Positions 5,387 to 64,000 of a DNA stretch of 64,000 nucleotides are shown here, piece after piece. The notes below the pieces were generated by a model. The model was given only the letters and a program-made list of their open reading frames with translations. It did no database searches and was not told the DNA's origin. The position numbers and the translations under genes were made by a program. The stretch spans positions 372,001 to 436,000 of the forward strand of contig NZ_BMPF01000003.1 of the NCBI RefSeq assembly GCF_014647455.2, written 5' to 3'. Each line of letters begins with the position of its first letter. The first letter of the stretch is position 1. The DNA is from Halarchaeum grantii. GTDB lineage: Archaea > Halobacteriota > Halobacteria > Halobacteriales > Halobacteriaceae.

Positions 5387-6151
5387 ATGCTCAAGGAAGC
5401 GTCGAACCCAGTGAAGTCGACGGTACGGACGTTCGAGGTGTTGGAGGGCTTGAAGGAGTTGAACGGGGCGCGCGTGACGGAGCTCGCGACCCACCTCGAC
5501 CTCCCGAAGAGCAACGTACACAACTACCTGAGTACGCTGCGACAGGAGGAGTACGTGGTGAAGGACGGGGACGAGTACCGCATCGGCCTACGGTTCTTCG
5601 AGCTCGGTGCGTACGCGCGCAATCGGATGAAGATCCACAACATCGCGCGCCCGGAGATCGACGAGCTCGCGGCGGAGACGGGCGAGCTGACGAACCTCCT
5701 CGTCGAGGAGCACGGACGCGGGTCCTACCTCTATCGCGCCCGTGGCGAGCAGGCGGTTCGCGTTGCCGCTCACGTCGGAACGCGCGTCCCCCTCCACAGC
5801 ACCGGGCTCGGGAAGGCGATCCTCGCACATCTCCCCGAGGAGTACGTCGAGGAGATCATCGCCTATCACGGCCTCCCGAGGAGCACGTCGGAAACGATCA
5901 CGGAACCGAATGAGCTCTACGAGGAACTCGAGCGCACGCGCGAGCGCGGCTACGCCATCGACAACGAGGAGCGTCTGCGTGGGCTGCGGTGTGTCGCCGC
6001 GCCCATCCTCAGCAACGAGGACCGCGTCCTCGGCGCGGTCAGCATCGCCGGCCCGACGAACCGACTGCAGGGTGACCTCTTCGAGGAAGAACTCCCCGAG
6101 CGCCTCCTCGAGACCGTCAACGTCATCGAGTTGAACGTCACGTACTCGTAA
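5387..6151 (+). CDS. IclR-family transcriptional regulator (XacR-like)
   Basis: The 254-residue protein has an N-terminal winged helix (RTFEVLEGLKELNGARVTELA, recognition helix around KSNVHNYLSTL) and a C-terminal IclR effector domain. That domain shows the conserved HSTGLGKAILAHLP, RGYAIDNEE, GLRCVAAPI and GAVSIAGP segments. Haloferax XacR, the activator of xylose and arabinose degradation, is of this family and length. The gene is divergent from the enolase-type dehydratase operon and upstream of a Gfo/Idh/MocA dehydrogenase gene, so it probably controls both. The ATG at 5387 has a TTTTGTAT element about 25 nt before it. Confidence 0.92.
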   Translation: MLKEASNPVKSTVRTFEVLEGLKELNGARVTELATHLDLPKSNVHNYLSTLRQEEYVVKDGDEYRIGLRFFELGAYARNRMKIHNIARPEIDELAAETGELTNLLVEEHGRGSYLYRARGEQAVRVAAHVGTRVPLHSTGLGKAILAHLPEEYVEEIIAYHGLPRSTSETITEPNELYEELERTRERGYAIDNEERLRGLRCVAAPILSNEDRVLGAVSIAGPTNRLQGDLFEEELPERLLETVNVIELNVTYS

Positions 6152-8302: not shown

Positions 8303-8368
8303 GCGCTATGCTGTCTCACTAACTCACTTGACAGTACTGGTCGCGGCGACGGGACGGGCGTTCGCGGC

Positions 8369-9068: not shown

Positions 9069-9120
9069 CTCAGACAAACTGGTCAGAAGTACTGTCCAGT
9101 AATACTGTACAGTAATACTG
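9069..9120. repeat. Tandem array of four 13-bp operator-like units
   Basis: Read on the plus strand the units are CTCAGACAAACTG (9069), GTCAGAAGTACTG (9082), TCCAGTAATACTG (9095) and TACAGTAATACTG (9108). The last two contain the 11-bp palindrome CAGTAATACTG (self-complementary around a central A/T). The array lies immediately upstream of the DUF2238-like gene. Similar arrays with the same 13-bp period occur at 23865-23916 and 51867-51905. Confidence 0.8.
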
Positions 9121-23864: not shown

Positions 23865-23916
23865 TACGATAATACTAGACAGTACACTTAGTCAGTAATA
23901 CTTCGTAGGTGTACTG
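23865..23916. repeat. Second tandem array of 13-bp units
   Basis: Four consecutive 13-bp units read TACGATAATACTA (23865), GACAGTACACTTA (23878), GTCAGTAATACTT (23891) and CGTAGGTGTACTG (23904). The consensus NNCAGTAATACTG and the 13-bp period are the same as at 9069-9120, though the copies are more diverged. It lies between the divergent corA operon (43 nt from its ATG) and the parA-like gene (47 nt from its ATG), so it could control either or both. Confidence 0.65.
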
Positions 23917-23963: not shown

Positions 23964-24848
23964 ATGCCGACGACCGCATACACGATCTGGAGCGAGGCCG
24001 GCGGGGTGGGGAAGACCACCTTCACGGTCACGCTCGCGGCCGCGCACGCCCGACACGGCCAGCGCGTGCTCGTCGTCGACCTCGACCCGCAGGACGGCGG
24101 GGCGACCCACCACTTCGGCGCGACCGACGAGCGCTCGAACCCCGAGGCGGACAACCTCGTCCGGCACATGATCGGCCGTCCGAAGGGCGACTTCGCGGAC
24201 CTCGTCGAGGGCGTCGCCGACGGGATCGACCTCGTGCCGTCGCACAACATGCTCGAATCCCTCGAGCGCAACCTCCTGCGCGCCCAGCGCATGGAGGAGG
24301 ACATGGGCGAGGAGTTCGTCCCCGAACGCCAACTCCGCCGCGTCCTCAGCGAGAACGCGATTCCCGAGACGTACGACGTCATCATCATCGACCCGCCCGC
24401 GACCGGCGGCCAGCACGTCTACAACGCCGTCTACGCGGCGTCGAACCTCCTCATCCCCATCGAGCTCTCCGCGAAGGGACAGGAGTCCGTCGAGGGGATG
24501 CGCGACACCGTCGAGGGCATCGAGGCCGAGCTCGAGGACGTCGAAGTCGGCGTCCTCGGCGTCGTCCCGAACCGCGTCTCGAACACGAAGACCCAGTCGG
24601 CGTACAAGGAAGCCCTCGAGGAGCAGGGCTTCCCCGTCGCGCCGGTGGAGGTCCGCGAGCGCCGCGCGATGCTGGAGGGCGCGTGGGACGCCCAAACGAC
24701 CCCCTACGAGTTCGCGACCGGTCGCGAGCGCGTTCGCGAACGCGAGCTCGAGACGCTCCGGCAGTTCGACGAGCTCGCGCGCTACGTCGCCGCGCAGTTC
24801 GGCGTCGAGTTGGACGAATCCGACATCGACGAGGAGGTGCGACTATGA
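23964..24848 (+). CDS. ParA-family ATPase with atypical Walker A
   Basis: The 294-residue protein is a ParA/MinD-type ATPase: P-loop EAGGVGKTTFTVTLA at residues 10-24, VLVVDLDPQDGGATHHF (Walker A' Asp) near 43 and YDVIIIDPPATGG (Walker B) near 134. The canonical deviant P-loop is KGGxGKT; here the signature lysine is replaced by Ala, while the P-loop lysine is present. Such proteins form ATP-dependent dimers that segregate DNA or position complexes. The ATG at 23964 begins MPTTAYTIWSEAGG; an upstream in-frame start would add nine residues. The next gene overlaps by 4 nt. Confidence 0.88.
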   Translation: MPTTAYTIWSEAGGVGKTTFTVTLAAAHARHGQRVLVVDLDPQDGGATHHFGATDERSNPEADNLVRHMIGRPKGDFADLVEGVADGIDLVPSHNMLESLERNLLRAQRMEEDMGEEFVPERQLRRVLSENAIPETYDVIIIDPPATGGQHVYNAVYAASNLLIPIELSAKGQESVEGMRDTVEGIEAELEDVEVGVLGVVPNRVSNTKTQSAYKEALEEQGFPVAPVEVRERRAMLEGAWDAQTTPYEFATGRERVRERELETLRQFDELARYVAAQFGVELDESDIDEEVRL

Positions 24849-25210
24849 AGTCCGGCGCGAGCGACCCGTTCGCAAACGACGACGACGAAGGCGAGGAGGC
24901 GAGGGAGTCCGAGGCCGACGCGTCGTCCGAGGGTGCGGCGAGCGAGAGCGGGGACGCGTCGAGCGACGAACCGATCGAACTCCCCTACATCTACCGGCGC
25001 GACAAGGTGAAGGACGAGCGCCCGGACGTCCACCAGCTGTTCGTGCGCTCGGAGACGGACGAATCGGCGCGCGACGCCGAGCGAGACCTCGAGAAACTCC
25101 TCGGCGAGGACGTCTACCGCCTCGACGCCCGCGAAGCAATCTACCTCGCGGGGATGCGCCACCTCGACGAGGCGGCGGACGTGCTCCGCGAGTGGGGGTA
25201 CGACCGCTGA
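24845..25210 (+). CDS. Small acidic partner protein of the ParA-like ATPase
   Basis: The 121-residue product has a disordered acidic N-terminus (about 1-45, rich in Asp, Glu and Ser) and a folded C-terminal part. The latter contains ELPYIYRRDKVKDERP, VHQLFVRSETDE and a helical end (DAREAIYLAGMRHLDEAADVL). Its ATG overlaps the parA-like stop codon (ATGA), a standard sign of translational coupling, so it is probably the cognate partner (ParB-like or adaptor). No HTH or CTPase motif is visible. A haloarchaea-specific family is likely. Confidence 0.75.
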   Translation: MKSGASDPFANDDDEGEEARESEADASSEGAASESGDASSDEPIELPYIYRRDKVKDERPDVHQLFVRSETDESARDAERDLEKLLGEDVYRLDAREAIYLAGMRHLDEAADVLREWGYDR

Positions 25211-25342: not shown

Positions 25343-25960
25343 ATGAGTGCAGACGAAGCGACCTGCAACTGCAAGGTCGGCCGGGTCGCGTCCGAGTACG
25401 GGCTCGGGGAGATCGGCGAGGAACTGGCGTCGCTCTGGCGCGGCGAGGAGGGCGAGTCGTACAGCCTGCGCGACCTCCAGCATTACTTCAACCAGCGCGT
25501 CCTCGAAGCGGAGTTGCGCTCGGCGAACGTCGAGGTGCTCGACGGCGAACTGGAGAACACCTATCGCCTCCTCACGGACGACGACGTGAGCGCGGGGATG
25601 CGGACGCAGGCGATGGGGCGACTCGAGCGCGACGGCGTCGACGTCGAGGCCGTCGAGAAGGACTTCGTCTCCCATCAGTCCATCCACACGCACCTCCGGG
25701 AGTGCCTCGGCGCCGAGAAGGACCCCGAGCCGGCGGACCGCGTCGCCTCGACGCAGAGCACGGTCGGATCGCTGGAGGCGCGCACGGAGAAGATCGCGGC
25801 CAACAACCTCGAACGCCTCGCCGGCGAGGAAGTGTCGCTCGAAGGCTTCGACGTCATCGTGACGACGCACGTCACCTGCGACGAGTGCGGGCGGCGCTAC
25901 GAGTTCGGCGACCTACTCGACGACGGTGGCTGTGAGTGTCGCCTCCCACAGCACGCCTGA
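25343..25960 (+). CDS. rdfA: RdfA-like rod-determining factor
   Basis: The 205-residue protein matches the haloarchaeal RdfA family. The N-terminal CNCKVGRVASEYGLGEIGEE stretch is near-invariant in the family. A helical middle part (LQHYFNQRVLEAELRSANV) follows, and the C-terminus holds a zinc-binding cluster (CDECGRRYEFG...CEC, near residues 177-200). RdfA in Haloferax volcanii is needed for rod-shaped cells, and its gene is likewise followed by an SMC-related gene; the same order is seen here. The protein probably acts in regulation or in a complex with the SMC-like protein. It has its own promoter and a 20-bp palindrome upstream. Confidence 0.85.
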   Translation: MSADEATCNCKVGRVASEYGLGEIGEELASLWRGEEGESYSLRDLQHYFNQRVLEAELRSANVEVLDGELENTYRLLTDDDVSAGMRTQAMGRLERDGVDVEAVEKDFVSHQSIHTHLRECLGAEKDPEPADRVASTQSTVGSLEARTEKIAANNLERLAGEEVSLEGFDVIVTTHVTCDECGRRYEFGDLLDDGGCECRLPQHA

Positions 25961-26005: not shown

Positions 26006-27967
26006 ATGCAAACGAGTCGTGCCGAGGGGACGGACGCGAGTATCCGAGTCTCCAACATCGGCGGTATCGAGTCGACGGAAGTCGACCTCACACCGGGCGT
26101 GAACGTCCTCGTCGGACGGAACGCGACCAACCGGACGTCCTTTCTCCAGTCGCTGATGGCGGTCTCGGGGAGCCAGCGCGCGTCGCTGAAGGGCGACGCC
26201 GAGGAGGGCCGCGTCGAACTCGAGCTCGGCGACGAGACGTTCACGCGCGTCCTGACGCGGCGCGGCGACGGCGTCGACTTCTCCGGCGACCCCGTCCTCG
26301 ACGACCCCGAGCTCGCGGACCTCTTCGCGTTCCTCCTCGAGGACAACGAGGCGCGTCGCGCCATCGCCACGAAGGGCGACCTCCGAGACCTCGTGATGCG
26401 ACCGGTCGACACGGAGGCGATCAACGACCGCATCGACGAACTCGTCGCGGAGCGCGAGCGCATCGACGACGAGATCGAGAGCGCGGACGCTGCGAGCCGC
26501 CGGATTCCCGAGCTCGAGGAGCGCCGCGTCGACCTGCAGGACGAGATCGAGGCGAAGCGCGAAGCCCTCGAAGCCAAGCAGGACGAGATCGACGAAGCCG
26601 ACGCCGGCGTCGAGGAGTCCCGCGAGGAGAAGGACGACCTCGAGCAGGCGCTCGACCGGCTGAACGACCGGCGCGCGGAGCTCGAACGCGTCGCCTCGCG
26701 GCTGGAGAACGAGCGCTCCAGTCTCGCGTCCGTCCGCGAGGAGCGCGAGGACGTCGAGGAGACGCTCGCGGACCTCGACGCGGTCGACGAGGACGAGGTG
26801 ACGTTCCTCGAGGAGCGCGTCTCCTCGCTTCGCGATCGGAAGCGGCGCCTCGACTCGACGATCACGCAGCTCCAGAGCCTCATCCAGTTCAACGAGGAGA
26901 TGCTCGACGGCGAGCACACCGAGGTCCTCCAGCTCCTCGCGGACGAGGAGGGCGCGGAGTCGAGCGCGGTGACGGACGCGCTCCTCCCGGAGTCCGAGCA
27001 CTCGCAGGGCCGCTGTTGGACGTGTGGCTCCGAGGTGTCGATGGACGACGTCGAGGAGACGCTGGAGAAGCTCCGCTCGCTCGCGCGCGAGAAGCGCACG
27101 GAGCGCTCGGACGTGACGAGCGAGCTCGAGGACGTGCAGGCCGAGCGCAACGAGCTCGAGACGCGCATCGAGCGCCGCGAGAGCCTGGAGTCGCGGCTCG
27201 AGGACCTCGGCGAGGAGATCGAGGAGCGCGAGGACGCCGTCGAGCGCCTCACCGACGAGCGCGAGGAGGCACAGACGGCGGTCGAGGACCTCGAGGAGAC
27301 GGTCGAGGACCTCGAGGAGGGCCGGCACAGCGCGGTGCTCGACCTCCACCGGGAGGCGAACGAGCTCCAGTTCGAGCTGAACGACCTGCAGGACGACCTC
27401 GAGCGCGTCGAGGAGGAGATCACGGAGCTGCAGGCGGAGGCGGACCGCCGCGAGGACCTCGAAGCGGAGCGCGAGGAACTGACGACGGAACTCGAGGACC
27501 TGCGGACGCGCATCGACCGCCTCGAAGCGGAGGCTGTCGAGTCGTTCAACGAGCACATGGAGACGGTGCTCGACGTGCTCGATTACGGGAACGTCTCGCG
27601 GGTGTGGATCGAGCGCGCGGAAGAGCAGGTCCGGCAGGGCCGCCGGAAGGTGGAGAAGACGGTGTTCCGCCTGCACGTCGTCCGCACGGGCGCGGACGGC
27701 ACCGCCTACGAGGACACGGTCGACCACCTCTCGGAGTCCGAGCGCGAGGTCATCGGCCTCGTCTTCGGCCTCGCGGGCTACCTCGTCCACGAGGTCTACG
27801 AGGAGTGCCCGTTCATGCTGCTGGACTCGCTGGAGGCCATCGACTCGGATCGCATCGCGGCGCTCGTCGACTACTTCCACGAGTACGCGCCCTACATCGC
27901 CGTCGCGCTCCTGCCGGAGGACGCGCAGGCGCTCGACGACGACTACCGGCGCGTCACCGAGATCTGA
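26006..27967 (+). CDS. Archaea-specific SMC-related protein with lysine-less P-loop
   Basis: The 653-residue protein has SMC/Rad50 layout. An N-terminal ATPase half has the P-loop GRNATNRTSFL near residue 36, where Lys is replaced by Arg. Long coiled coils span about 135-330 and 345-520, separated by a CWTCG zinc-hook-like pair near residue 338. The C-terminal ATPase half carries a signature-like LSESEREVIGLVFGLAGY near 582 and Walker B MLLDSLEAID near 611. The altered P-loop is characteristic of the haloarchaeal SMC-related family. A TATA element (CCTATAAG, 25973-25980) gives it its own promoter, although it follows rdfA by only 45 nt. Likely role: chromosome organisation or cell-shape control. 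Confidence 0.9.
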   Translation: MQTSRAEGTDASIRVSNIGGIESTEVDLTPGVNVLVGRNATNRTSFLQSLMAVSGSQRASLKGDAEEGRVELELGDETFTRVLTRRGDGVDFSGDPVLDDPELADLFAFLLEDNEARRAIATKGDLRDLVMRPVDTEAINDRIDELVAERERIDDEIESADAASRRIPELEERRVDLQDEIEAKREALEAKQDEIDEADAGVEESREEKDDLEQALDRLNDRRAELERVASRLENERSSLASVREEREDVEETLADLDAVDEDEVTFLEERVSSLRDRKRRLDSTITQLQSLIQFNEEMLDGEHTEVLQLLADEEGAESSAVTDALLPESEHSQGRCWTCGSEVSMDDVEETLEKLRSLAREKRTERSDVTSELEDVQAERNELETRIERRESLESRLEDLGEEIEEREDAVERLTDEREEAQTAVEDLEETVEDLEEGRHSAVLDLHREANELQFELNDLQDDLERVEEEITELQAEADRREDLEAEREELTTELEDLRTRIDRLEAEAVESFNEHMETVLDVLDYGNVSRVWIERAEEQVRQGRRKVEKTVFRLHVVRTGADGTAYEDTVDHLSESEREVIGLVFGLAGYLVHEVYEECPFMLLDSLEAIDSDRIAALVDYFHEYAPYIAVALLPEDAQALDDDYRRVTEI

Positions 27968-51866: not shown

Positions 51867-51905
51867 TCTAGTAATACTGACCAGTAGTATTGTTCAGACA
51901 GACTG
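51867..51905. repeat. Third tandem array of 13-bp units
   Basis: Three units follow in register: TCTAGTAATACTG (51867), ACCAGTAGTATTG (51880) and TTCAGACAGACTG (51893). They match the consensus NNCAGTAATACTG of the arrays at 9069 and 23865. The third unit resembles the first unit at 9069 (TCAGACAAACTG). The array is 62 nt from the dgoD-like ATG (minus) and 214 nt from the alcohol dehydrogenase ATG (plus). Confidence 0.75.
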
Positions 51906-62635: not shown

Positions 62636-62693
62636 TTAGCCGACACCGTTATCCGTCTTCGATAGGCCTTCAAGTGAACTCGGAACAGCGGAC

Positions 62694-62720
62694 GCTCCGG
62701 ACACTCCGGACACTCCGGAC
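62694..62720 (+). repeat. Three 9-bp tandem repeats at the orc1 promoter
   Basis: GCTCCGGAC, ACTCCGGAC and ACTCCGGAC follow each other directly, 8 nt before the TATA-like CTTTATTG (62728-62735) of orc1. Just before them is ACAGCGGAC, which matches the start of origin box 2, so Orc1 itself may bind here and control its own synthesis. Confidence 0.75.
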
Positions 62721-62760
62721 GCGGTGGCTTTATTGTGGTCGGCGGTCTGGGACGTTCGCA

Positions 62761-64000
62761 TGGGGCTCTTCGAGCGGGACACCGACATCTATCGGGACCG
62801 CGACGCACTCCGGGAGGACTACCAGCCAGCCGAACTCGTCGGGCGGGACGAGGAACTCTCAACCTACACGTCCGCCCTCCAGCCGGTCATCAACGGCGAA
62901 CAGCCGAACAACGTCTTCCTCTACGGGAAGACGGGCGTCGGGAAGACTGCGGCGACGCGCTACCTCCTCGACCACCTCCGCGAGGACGCCGACGAGTACG
63001 ACGACATCGCCCTCGACATCATCTTCCTCAACTGCGACGGCCTCTCCTCCTCCTACCAGGTCGCCACCCACCTCGTGAACGAACTGCGCGCCGAGCACAA
63101 CCAGATCAGTACGACGGGCTACCCGCTCGCGACGGTCTACGAGATGCTCTGGGAGGACCTCGACTCGCACGGCGGCACGGTCCTCATCGTCCTCGACGAG
63201 ATCGACAACATCGGCGACGACTCCATCCTCTATCAACTCCCGCGCGCTCGCGCGAACGGCAAACTCGAGGACACCCAAGTGGGCCTCATCGGCATCTCGA
63301 ACGACTTCTCCTTCCGCGACGACCTCTCGCCGAAGGTGAAGTCCTCGCTCTGCGAGAACGAGATCCACTTCCCCGCGTACGACGCCACCGACCTGAAGGC
63401 CATCCTGAAACAGCGCGCGGACGTCGCGTTTCACGACGGCGTCCTCGACGACGGCGTTATCCCGCTCTGTGCGGCCTACGGCGCGAAGGACGCCGGTGAC
63501 GCCCGCCAATCCATCGACCTCCTGATGAAGGCGGGCGACGTCGCGCGCGACGACGAGGCCACCACCGTCACCGAGGACCACGTCGACCGTGGGCGCACCG
63601 CGCTCGAACGCGGCCGCATCGAGGAGGGCATTCGAGGGCTCACCGAGCACGGCCACCTCGTGCTCTACGCGCTCGTGACGAACGACCTCGAGGGCGAGAC
63701 GCCGATCCGCTCGCGCGACGTCCGCCCGCGCTACACGCGCTTCGCCGAACTCGCGAACCGCGACCCGCTCGTCCCCCGCCGTATGCGCGATCACCTGAGC
63801 GAGCTCGCGATGCTCGGCATCATCTCGGTCACGGAGCGCAACGAGGGGCGACGCGGCGGCACCTACCGCGAGTACGAACTCGACATGCCGGTCCAGCAGG
63901 TCCTGAGCGCGCTCTCGGAGACCGTCGAACTCGTCGGCGTTCACGAGTCGGTCGTCGAACTCGCGACGGACGTGATGCCGGACGTCGCGGCGGCGGCCGC
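62761..64000 (+). CDS. orc1: Orc1/Cdc6 replication initiator, 3' end outside the window
   Basis: The visible 413 residues cover nearly a whole Orc1/Cdc6. The N-terminus is MGLFERDTDIYRDRDALRED, then LVGRDEELSTYTSAL and Walker A LYGKTGVGKTAATRYLL near residue 59. Walker B VLIVLDEIDNIGDD near 143 and sensor-1 GLIGISNDFSFRDDL near 179 follow, then GDARQSIDLLMKAG (sensor-2 area) near 247 and a C-terminal winged helix (about 305-400). It binds origin boxes and loads the MCM helicase. No stop appears before the window ends. The leaderless ATG at 62761 has CTTTATTG 26-33 nt upstream. Confidence 0.95.

Follow-up and report, generated by a model that had tools for sequence, protein, structure and literature searches.

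The window considered here, 64,000 nucleotides of the Halarchaeum grantii genome, is part of a 500-kb contig (C3) of a 3.02-Mb draft assembly. It holds a gene for a ParA-type ATPase (parA, 23964–24848, plus strand; Walker A SEAGGVGKT), which is overlapped by the gene for a putative centromere-binding protein of 121 residues (CBP, 24845–25210, plus strand). Downstream on the same strand lie an rdfA-like gene (25343–25960) and the gene for an archaea-specific SMC-related protein (ASRP, 26006–27967; NF045487, E 1.9e-203). The rdfA-like gene has no NCBIfam match at E 0.001, and its equivalent on the annotated plasmid pCBA1220-01 is the rod-determining factor RdfA. In Haloferax volcanii, RdfA and the SMC-like protein Sph3 are reported to be required for rod shape, and genes of the rdfA and sph3 families are described as mostly adjacent (PMC10869688). 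An orc1/cdc6 replication initiator gene (62760–63998, plus strand; TIGR02928, E 7.6e-133; start codon picked by eye) lies ~38 kb from parA and runs off the window end. Just upstream of it, at 62689–62720, is a 9-bp tandem repeat, CGGACACTC (3.6 copies, 95% matches), possibly part of an origin.

Three short arrays of 13-bp units are interspersed among the genes of the window. The array at 9069–9120 has the end of an SDR gene (9233) on one side and a hypothetical gene on the other, and comprises four units in exact register: CT-CAGACAAACTG, GT-CAGAAGTACTG, TC-CAGTAATACTG and TA-CAGTAATACTG. Four degenerate units form the parA-proximal array (23865–23916), between parA and a minus-strand corA-like gene named after its pCBA1220-01 equivalent; this array is weaker, with its best three units totalling 8 mismatches. 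The third array (51867–51905) has three units and lies between divergent genes. Each unit pairs a CAGTA half-site with an inverted one, TACTG; along a row, the spacing from centre to centre is 6 and 7 bp in turn (~6.5 bp). The 11-mer is matched 17 times in the window at up to two mismatches, counting both strands, as compared to 1.5 expected. Three-unit arrays at a 13-bp period occur at these three places only, were found in none of 200 dinucleotide shuffles of the window, and have no counterpart in the window when other periods between 8 and 24 bp are tried. Local shuffles likewise failed to reach the score of each array in 1000 attempts, ruling out chance or low complexity as their origin. 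The three 13-bp arrays are real.

A preliminary description of this DNA had reported four palindromic units in strict 13-bp register at 9069–9120 and companion arrays of equal period at the two other places, all of which the sequence and the shuffles bear out. Its statement that the companions stand beside unrelated genes fails for 23865–23916, where the neighbor is parA, but holds for the other neighbors. It is doubtful that the 9069–9120 array abuts the start of a membrane-protein gene, as the gene annotated on pCBA1220-01 begins 129 bp beyond the array, and the “DUF2238-like” label given to that gene is backed by no credible Pfam match. The related single site described near 8330 is CAGTACTG at 8332. 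This site is not counted here because the 3-bp centre is absent and the 8-mer occurs three times in the window.

The window ParA matches AAA_31 (E 1.1e-25) and CbiA (E 1.3e-18) in Pfam and the ParA-like phrog_164 (E 4e-39), and scores 81.5 bits against NCBIfam ParA_partition, below the 180-bit cut-off. Its sequence qualifies it as a predicted ParA/MinD-type P-loop ATPase. The Walker A motif carries Ala at the position of the usual signature lysine, and the deviant form KGGxxK is absent. SEAGGVGK is found in 23 of 24 parA loci searched and SEAGGIGK in the remaining one; the 15 further ParA rows and most loci of the genome scan were selected with a SEAGGVGK-type motif, and that they agree simply reflects the selection. 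With Ala in place of the signature lysine, the ATPase cycle may be a different one. McdA (SGGQGKT) is described as another ParA-family member without that lysine (PMC9178275).

The counterpart of contig C3 in Halarchaeum sp. CBA1220 is the closed plasmid pCBA1220-01 (602,938 bp). Five C3 arrays fall in stretches 91–97% identical to this plasmid, and the arrays are present there too. The equivalent of 9069–9120 is at pCBA1220-01 65997–66040, inside a 93.5% identical stretch, and that of 51867–51905 is at 5627–5657. Arrays read on C3 comprise roughly two to four units (four to eight half-sites) and are found as far as ~290 kb from parA. All five arrays on pCBA1220-01 are intergenic, two between divergent genes, two between same-strand genes and one between convergent genes; the array between convergent 3' ends is seen in both the window organism and pCBA1220-01. 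Among 24 arrays checked in fetched stretches, 19 overlap no plausible acidic ORF. Five were flagged, and for one of these (L033) the ORF is contradicted by the plasmid annotation.

The arrays are specific to their replicon, although the confinement is imperfect. In the organism's own genome, the CAGTAnTACTG array pattern (TACTGnnCAGTAnTACTG) at up to two mismatches has 14 matches, all on C3. At three mismatches, 15 of 34 matches lie off C3 (reversed control, 9), and one exact single 11-mer is also present on contig C1. In other Halarchaeum genomes, the CBP-carrying contig holds 10 of 10 matches (G002), 15 of 16 (G003) and 5 of 8 (G001, an assembly of 170 contigs). The genes flanking the 9069–9120 array are ~60–70 kb apart in G002 and G003, each still near an array (L126, L127, L130, L131), so that a rearrangement breakpoint coincides with the array.

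Contig C5 of the window organism holds another parA/CBP pair, whose upstream array has a different sequence, TATAGCTATA. Arrays of TATAGCTATA at up to three mismatches give 12 rows in the organism's own genome, all on C5 and at three loci; a palindromic pattern gives one row per strand. In other genomes, they lie on the contig of their own parA in 8 of 8, 4 of 4 and 6 of 6 rows, there next to parA only, and a fifth genome has none. For the CAGTA pattern, the parA contig holds 7 of 10, 9 of 10, 22 of 26 and 1 of 5 matches in four other genomes. A third pattern, a pair of GTTnCAAAC, has no match in the window genome and falls on the parA contig in 7/7, 7/7, 14/15, 4/8 and 3/7 matches in five genomes. 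Throughout these other-genome comparisons, the parA contig was read from matching coordinates. Each large DNA circle seems to carry its own array sequence along with a matching small protein.

To place the window locus within a family, 98 parA loci were analyzed, drawn from a genome scan with the ParA alignment (80 of 218 relatives kept) plus other loci; L115, whose SEAGGIGK escaped the search expression, was dropped from this set. A CBP-like gene abuts or overlaps parA directly downstream at 97 of the 98 loci, as judged by eye from the C-termini. L159, which has another ORF after parA, and L198, which is garbled by ambiguous sequence, were left out of the CBP alignment, leaving 96 CBPs, or 74 after removal of those ≥95% identical. 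One haloarchaeal-type locus, L174, is on a metagenome-assembled contig labelled Mollicutes, which is probably misassigned because the locus is otherwise haloarchaeal. In Natrinema hispanicum, two par loci ~186 kb apart on one contig (L152 and L153) have identical array matches. A further nine distinct loci with distant CBP relatives (eleven ids: L078 (=L099), L079, L081–L083, L086–L088, L089 (=L095)) have no EAGGVGK-type ParA in the short stretches fetched and were left out of the analysis; they are possibly orphans or belong to other partition types.

The 13-bp register is a property of the family. In the 420 bp upstream of parA, a lag of 13 bp leads all 27 autocorrelation lags at 69 of the 98 loci and ranks in the top three at 83 (53 and 63, respectively, of the 74 non-redundant loci). 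At the window locus, with its degenerate array, this lag ranks 13th of 27, and in two sister species it comes 7th and 8th. The mean over 97 loci peaks at lags 13 and 26; in 83 control stretches taken 2.5 kb upstream, only multiples of three are prominent. Other parA loci in the CAGTA group carry between 2 and 15 sites. Upstream of parA at the 21 loci of this group, site spacings of 13, 26, 39 and 52 bp are accompanied by a minor series of 22, 35 and 48 bp, equal to 9 modulo 13, which looks like two array blocks joined at a fixed offset.

While the register is kept, the sequence is not. The commonest upstream words in seven CBP groups are CAGTAnTACTG, TATAGCTATA, TATCTnAGATA, TTAGGCTAAC, TAGTCTAACTA, the TGTTCATT type and GTTTCAAAC, and the array upstream of parA persists in every group as the motif changes. 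At up to one mismatch, the group's own motif is present at 20/21, 15/15, 6/12, 7/10, 4/4, 7/7 and 5/5 loci. Some motifs spill over between groups, as with TAGTCTAACTA in group 4 (3/12) and group 7 (4/10), GTTAGnCTAAC in group 3 (4/4) and TGTTCATTA in the CAGTA group (9/21). Since CBP distances served to define the groups, these group motifs are descriptive; the Mantel tests work without groups. By this measure, the correlation of upstream k-mer distance is stronger with the CBP (r 0.70) than with ParA distance (r 0.59). The partial correlation is 0.49 for the CBP given ParA and 0.17 for ParA given the CBP. None of 2000 permutations reached any of the observed values, and in the control region r is about 0. 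On these sequence distances, the palindrome follows the CBP more than it follows ParA.

In the AlphaFold2 model of the window CBP, the N-terminus is acidic and of low confidence, and the C-terminal domain is helical, with a strand-like segment, VHQLFVR, ahead of it; in the monomer, this segment has no regular structure. This segment changes together with the motif: VHQLFV is found with CAGTA, VHQFFL with CAGTG, VPYFLR with TATAGC and TVQLHL with TATCTTAGATA. Eleven segment types cover all 74 non-redundant CBPs, most with a distinct palindrome, and the RPIFLR and VPYFLR types have nearly one motif in common. Outside the training set, three VHQLFV loci (those of g25, below) carry CAGTA arrays, each also matching the overlapping CAGTGTnACTG, and one MVQFYL locus has the expected motif. 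Two Halarchaeum VHQLFV loci have no site at up to one mismatch and two sites each at two mismatches. Three IMG/VR contigs of 47–54 kb classed as viral (L236, L237, L238) encode a ParA and a TVQLHL-type CBP; two of them have the expected motif upstream and the third does not.

The pattern of the strand-like segment resembles the DNA-reading strand of the Arc repressor. Structure matches of the CBP in VIA place Arc on top (Z 3.6, rmsd 2.0, 41 residues), with AtaR2, TacA1 and TCP domains among the further top matches; an earlier VIA run put TCP domains first (Z 3.5), and all of these matches are weak (Z below 5). Arc, AtaR2, TacA1 and the TCP domains are ribbon-helix-helix (RHH) or RHH-like. A Foldseek search with the CBP model gave no significant match (E above 2). 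No credible family was found for the CBP in Pfam, NCBIfam, PHROG or PDB sequences, and its profiles match no PDB chain credibly. A ParB domain was matched in the window CBP by neither Pfam nor NCBIfam, and is absent from the 13 Pfam families listed for 19 members.

The family is widespread in the order, where the CBP profile is matched in at least 126 of 194 genomes and at least 47 of 64 genera, with at least 8 matches in one genome (the maximum among the matches listed). In the same 194 genomes, the CAGTA pattern at up to one mismatch gives 133 matches at 80 places in 44 genomes (reversed control, 10 matches). A CBP of any type is encoded on the same contig for at least 64 of the 80 places, leaving at most 16 on contigs without a listed CBP. 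For places with two or more overlapping registers, at least 26 of 27 share a contig with such a CBP.

In the three species of genus g25 (G046, G061 and G113), parA-CBP lies beside orc1 (TIGR02928 confirmed in two of the three) on contigs of 2.74–2.95 Mb, presumably the main chromosome. Of all groups, the CAGTA group has on average the ParA least like theirs (mean identity 0.52); the closest ParA is that of L158, from another group (0.70). Their CBP, with VHQLFV, is closest to the CAGTA group, and their arrays are CAGTA. This is not a clean swap, because L158 has a related strand, VHQFFL, and a CAGTG-like motif. In G046, a single contig, six array places lie within ~355 kb of 2.78 Mb if circular, and all six have at least three units in register. 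G061 also has six, within ~451 kb of 2.74 Mb if circular, of which those at 126139 and 384397 have no further unit in register, and G113 has two, 72 kb apart.

We propose that the arrays are parS-like centromeres of a replicon-specific ParA/CBP system, a reading to which we assign a probability of roughly 0.8, slightly lowered on account of the g25 case. The sequences themselves establish the arrays, their 13-bp spacing, their conservation, their replicon specificity and their co-variation with the CBP; that the CBP has an RHH fold, binds this DNA and recruits ParA, and that the system regulates itself and serves segregation, we infer from them. The CBP, encoded directly after parA, would bind as a line of dimers to the inverted half-sites, in which CAGTA alternates with TACTG. 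These dimers are probably ribbon-helix-helix, with the strand VHQLFV reading the bases; for an RHH protein, two dimers per 13 bp (one per half-site) and one dimer per unit are equally possible. The CBP-coated row would then recruit ParA, which would move the replicon over the nucleoid. By analogy with the parS sites of RHH systems (PMC9499535), the array upstream of parA probably also represses the parA-CBP operon. Many haloarchaeal replicons would each be equipped with a ParA/CBP pair and a half-site sequence of their own, which would allow several replicons in a cell to be sorted independently.

The preliminary description viewed the arrays as tandem palindromic sites for a protein, a prediction that we share for these conserved, intergenic arrays, and as operators of scattered genes. 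Were they operators, the CBP or another protein would repress or activate the neighbors, and linkage to parA would be mere autoregulation. Several arrays do lie upstream of genes, and the parA-proximal ones are near the start of that gene, where, as judged by eye, a TATA-like stretch follows directly. We nonetheless consider this improbable as the main function, because the arrays keep to the replicon that encodes the protein, their neighboring genes are unrelated, one array sits between convergent 3' ends in both species, and the motif changes with the parA-adjacent small protein while an array stays upstream of parA in all seven CBP groups. A role as replication iterons, binding Orc1/Cdc6 to set copy number or incompatibility, would fit the presence of orc1 near parA at several loci. 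It is very hard to reconcile with an array sequence that tracks the CBP, with arrays up to ~290 kb from parA, and with the lack of an orc1 or AAA ATPase gene in the fetched stretch at 6 of 10 annotated plasmid loci, and we regard it as highly improbable.

The arrays might instead be organizer or loader sites, where the CBP marks a domain in which ASRP loads and shapes the replicon and ParA serves as a regulator. The arrays are dispersed, a parA-CBP-rdfA-ASRP cluster occurs in the window, in pCBA1220-01 and in Haladaptatus halobius, and ASRP is near parA in Halalkalicoccus FCH27. At 8 of 10 annotated plasmid loci, however, neither rdfA nor ASRP is in the fetched stretch, and we judge this reading unlikely. 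Our confidences in it and in the centromere reading overlap because the two are not mutually exclusive. Taking the centromere reading further, we lean towards a general, replicon-addressed, mitosis-like system in haloarchaea, in which a strand-to-half-site code would reside in a fast-diversifying CBP, several systems would coexist per cell, some lineages would have an orc1-adjacent and presumably chromosomal version with dispersed arrays, and some replicons would be coupled to ASRP and RdfA.

A 2016 review lists the joint segregation of chromosome and megaplasmids in halophilic archaea, and the form of archaeal centromeres, as open questions (PMC5120986). A 2025 survey of ParB-CTPases infers that chromosomal ParABS is generally absent in archaea (PMC12704722); the haloarchaeal ParA/CBP system would escape such a survey because the CBP shows no ParB domain. 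Among the matches listed from the open-licence PMC literature (titles and abstract openings), we recognized no description of the arrays or of the ParA-CBP family. In that literature we also found no published motif that matches; the preliminary description, too, knew of no described haloarchaeal regulator with such a layout. A precedent in name dates from 1995, when the long tandem repeats of Haloferax that are now called CRISPR were suggested to have a role in partitioning replicons (PMC2841640); as partition sites, the arrays described here are better candidates. They supply exact DNA sites and an exact protein for tests in standard haloarchaea (relatives occur on pHME132 of Haloferax mediterranei and on pNRC200 of Halobacterium), and might also furnish a set of orthogonal partition modules.

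Several known systems invite comparison. CdrS is likewise a small RHH protein of haloarchaea whose DNA motif is symmetric, but it is encoded with ftsZ2, and its 18 sites are all on the main chromosome, 15 of them 41–110 nt upstream of a transcription start (PMC8406309). CdrS was rejected as the array binder on account of these differences in gene context and targets, as was haloarchaeal CsmR, whose motif TATCA-N4-TGATA differs. In the AspA-ParB-ParA system of pNOB8, AspA is described as a winged-helix protein that spreads from a 23-bp palindrome, and an extra protein, ParB, works with AspA and ParA (PMC5120986).

SegAB of the Sulfolobales also pairs an archaeal ParA-like ATPase with a site-specific RHH protein, and has palindromic sites both upstream of the operon and elsewhere on the replicon (PMC12284271). 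The SegB sites are 13-bp TCTAGA-S-TCTAGA, mostly intragenic in S. solfataricus (83.7%; PMC12284271), whereas the haloarchaeal arrays are mostly intergenic multi-unit rows of other sequences; TCTAGA-S-TCTAGA equals none of the seven CBP-group motifs.

The delta/omega/parS system of pSM19035 (type Ib, with an RHH ParB) likewise combines a ParA and a small CBP with tandem short repeats at the promoters of partition genes, and its six parS sites per plasmid consist of contiguous repeats in direct or inverted order (PMC9499535). Activation of ParA by omega is reported to need at least four contiguous repeats (PMC9499535). In the simplest reading, the haloarchaeal CBP would behave like omega on pSM19035, coating tandem half-sites and presenting the array to ParA. 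Omega recognizes non-palindromic 7-bp heptads, while the haloarchaeal half-sites alternate in 13-bp pairs and their motif has diversified among sister replicons. The haloarchaeal ParA has Ala where the ParAs tabulated in PMC9178275, a comparison that does not include delta, mostly have the signature Lys. Because this lysine is absent, CBP homology is undetected and the fold is putative, we do not file the haloarchaeal system as a member of either class, and describe it as one that would work like type Ib or SegAB.
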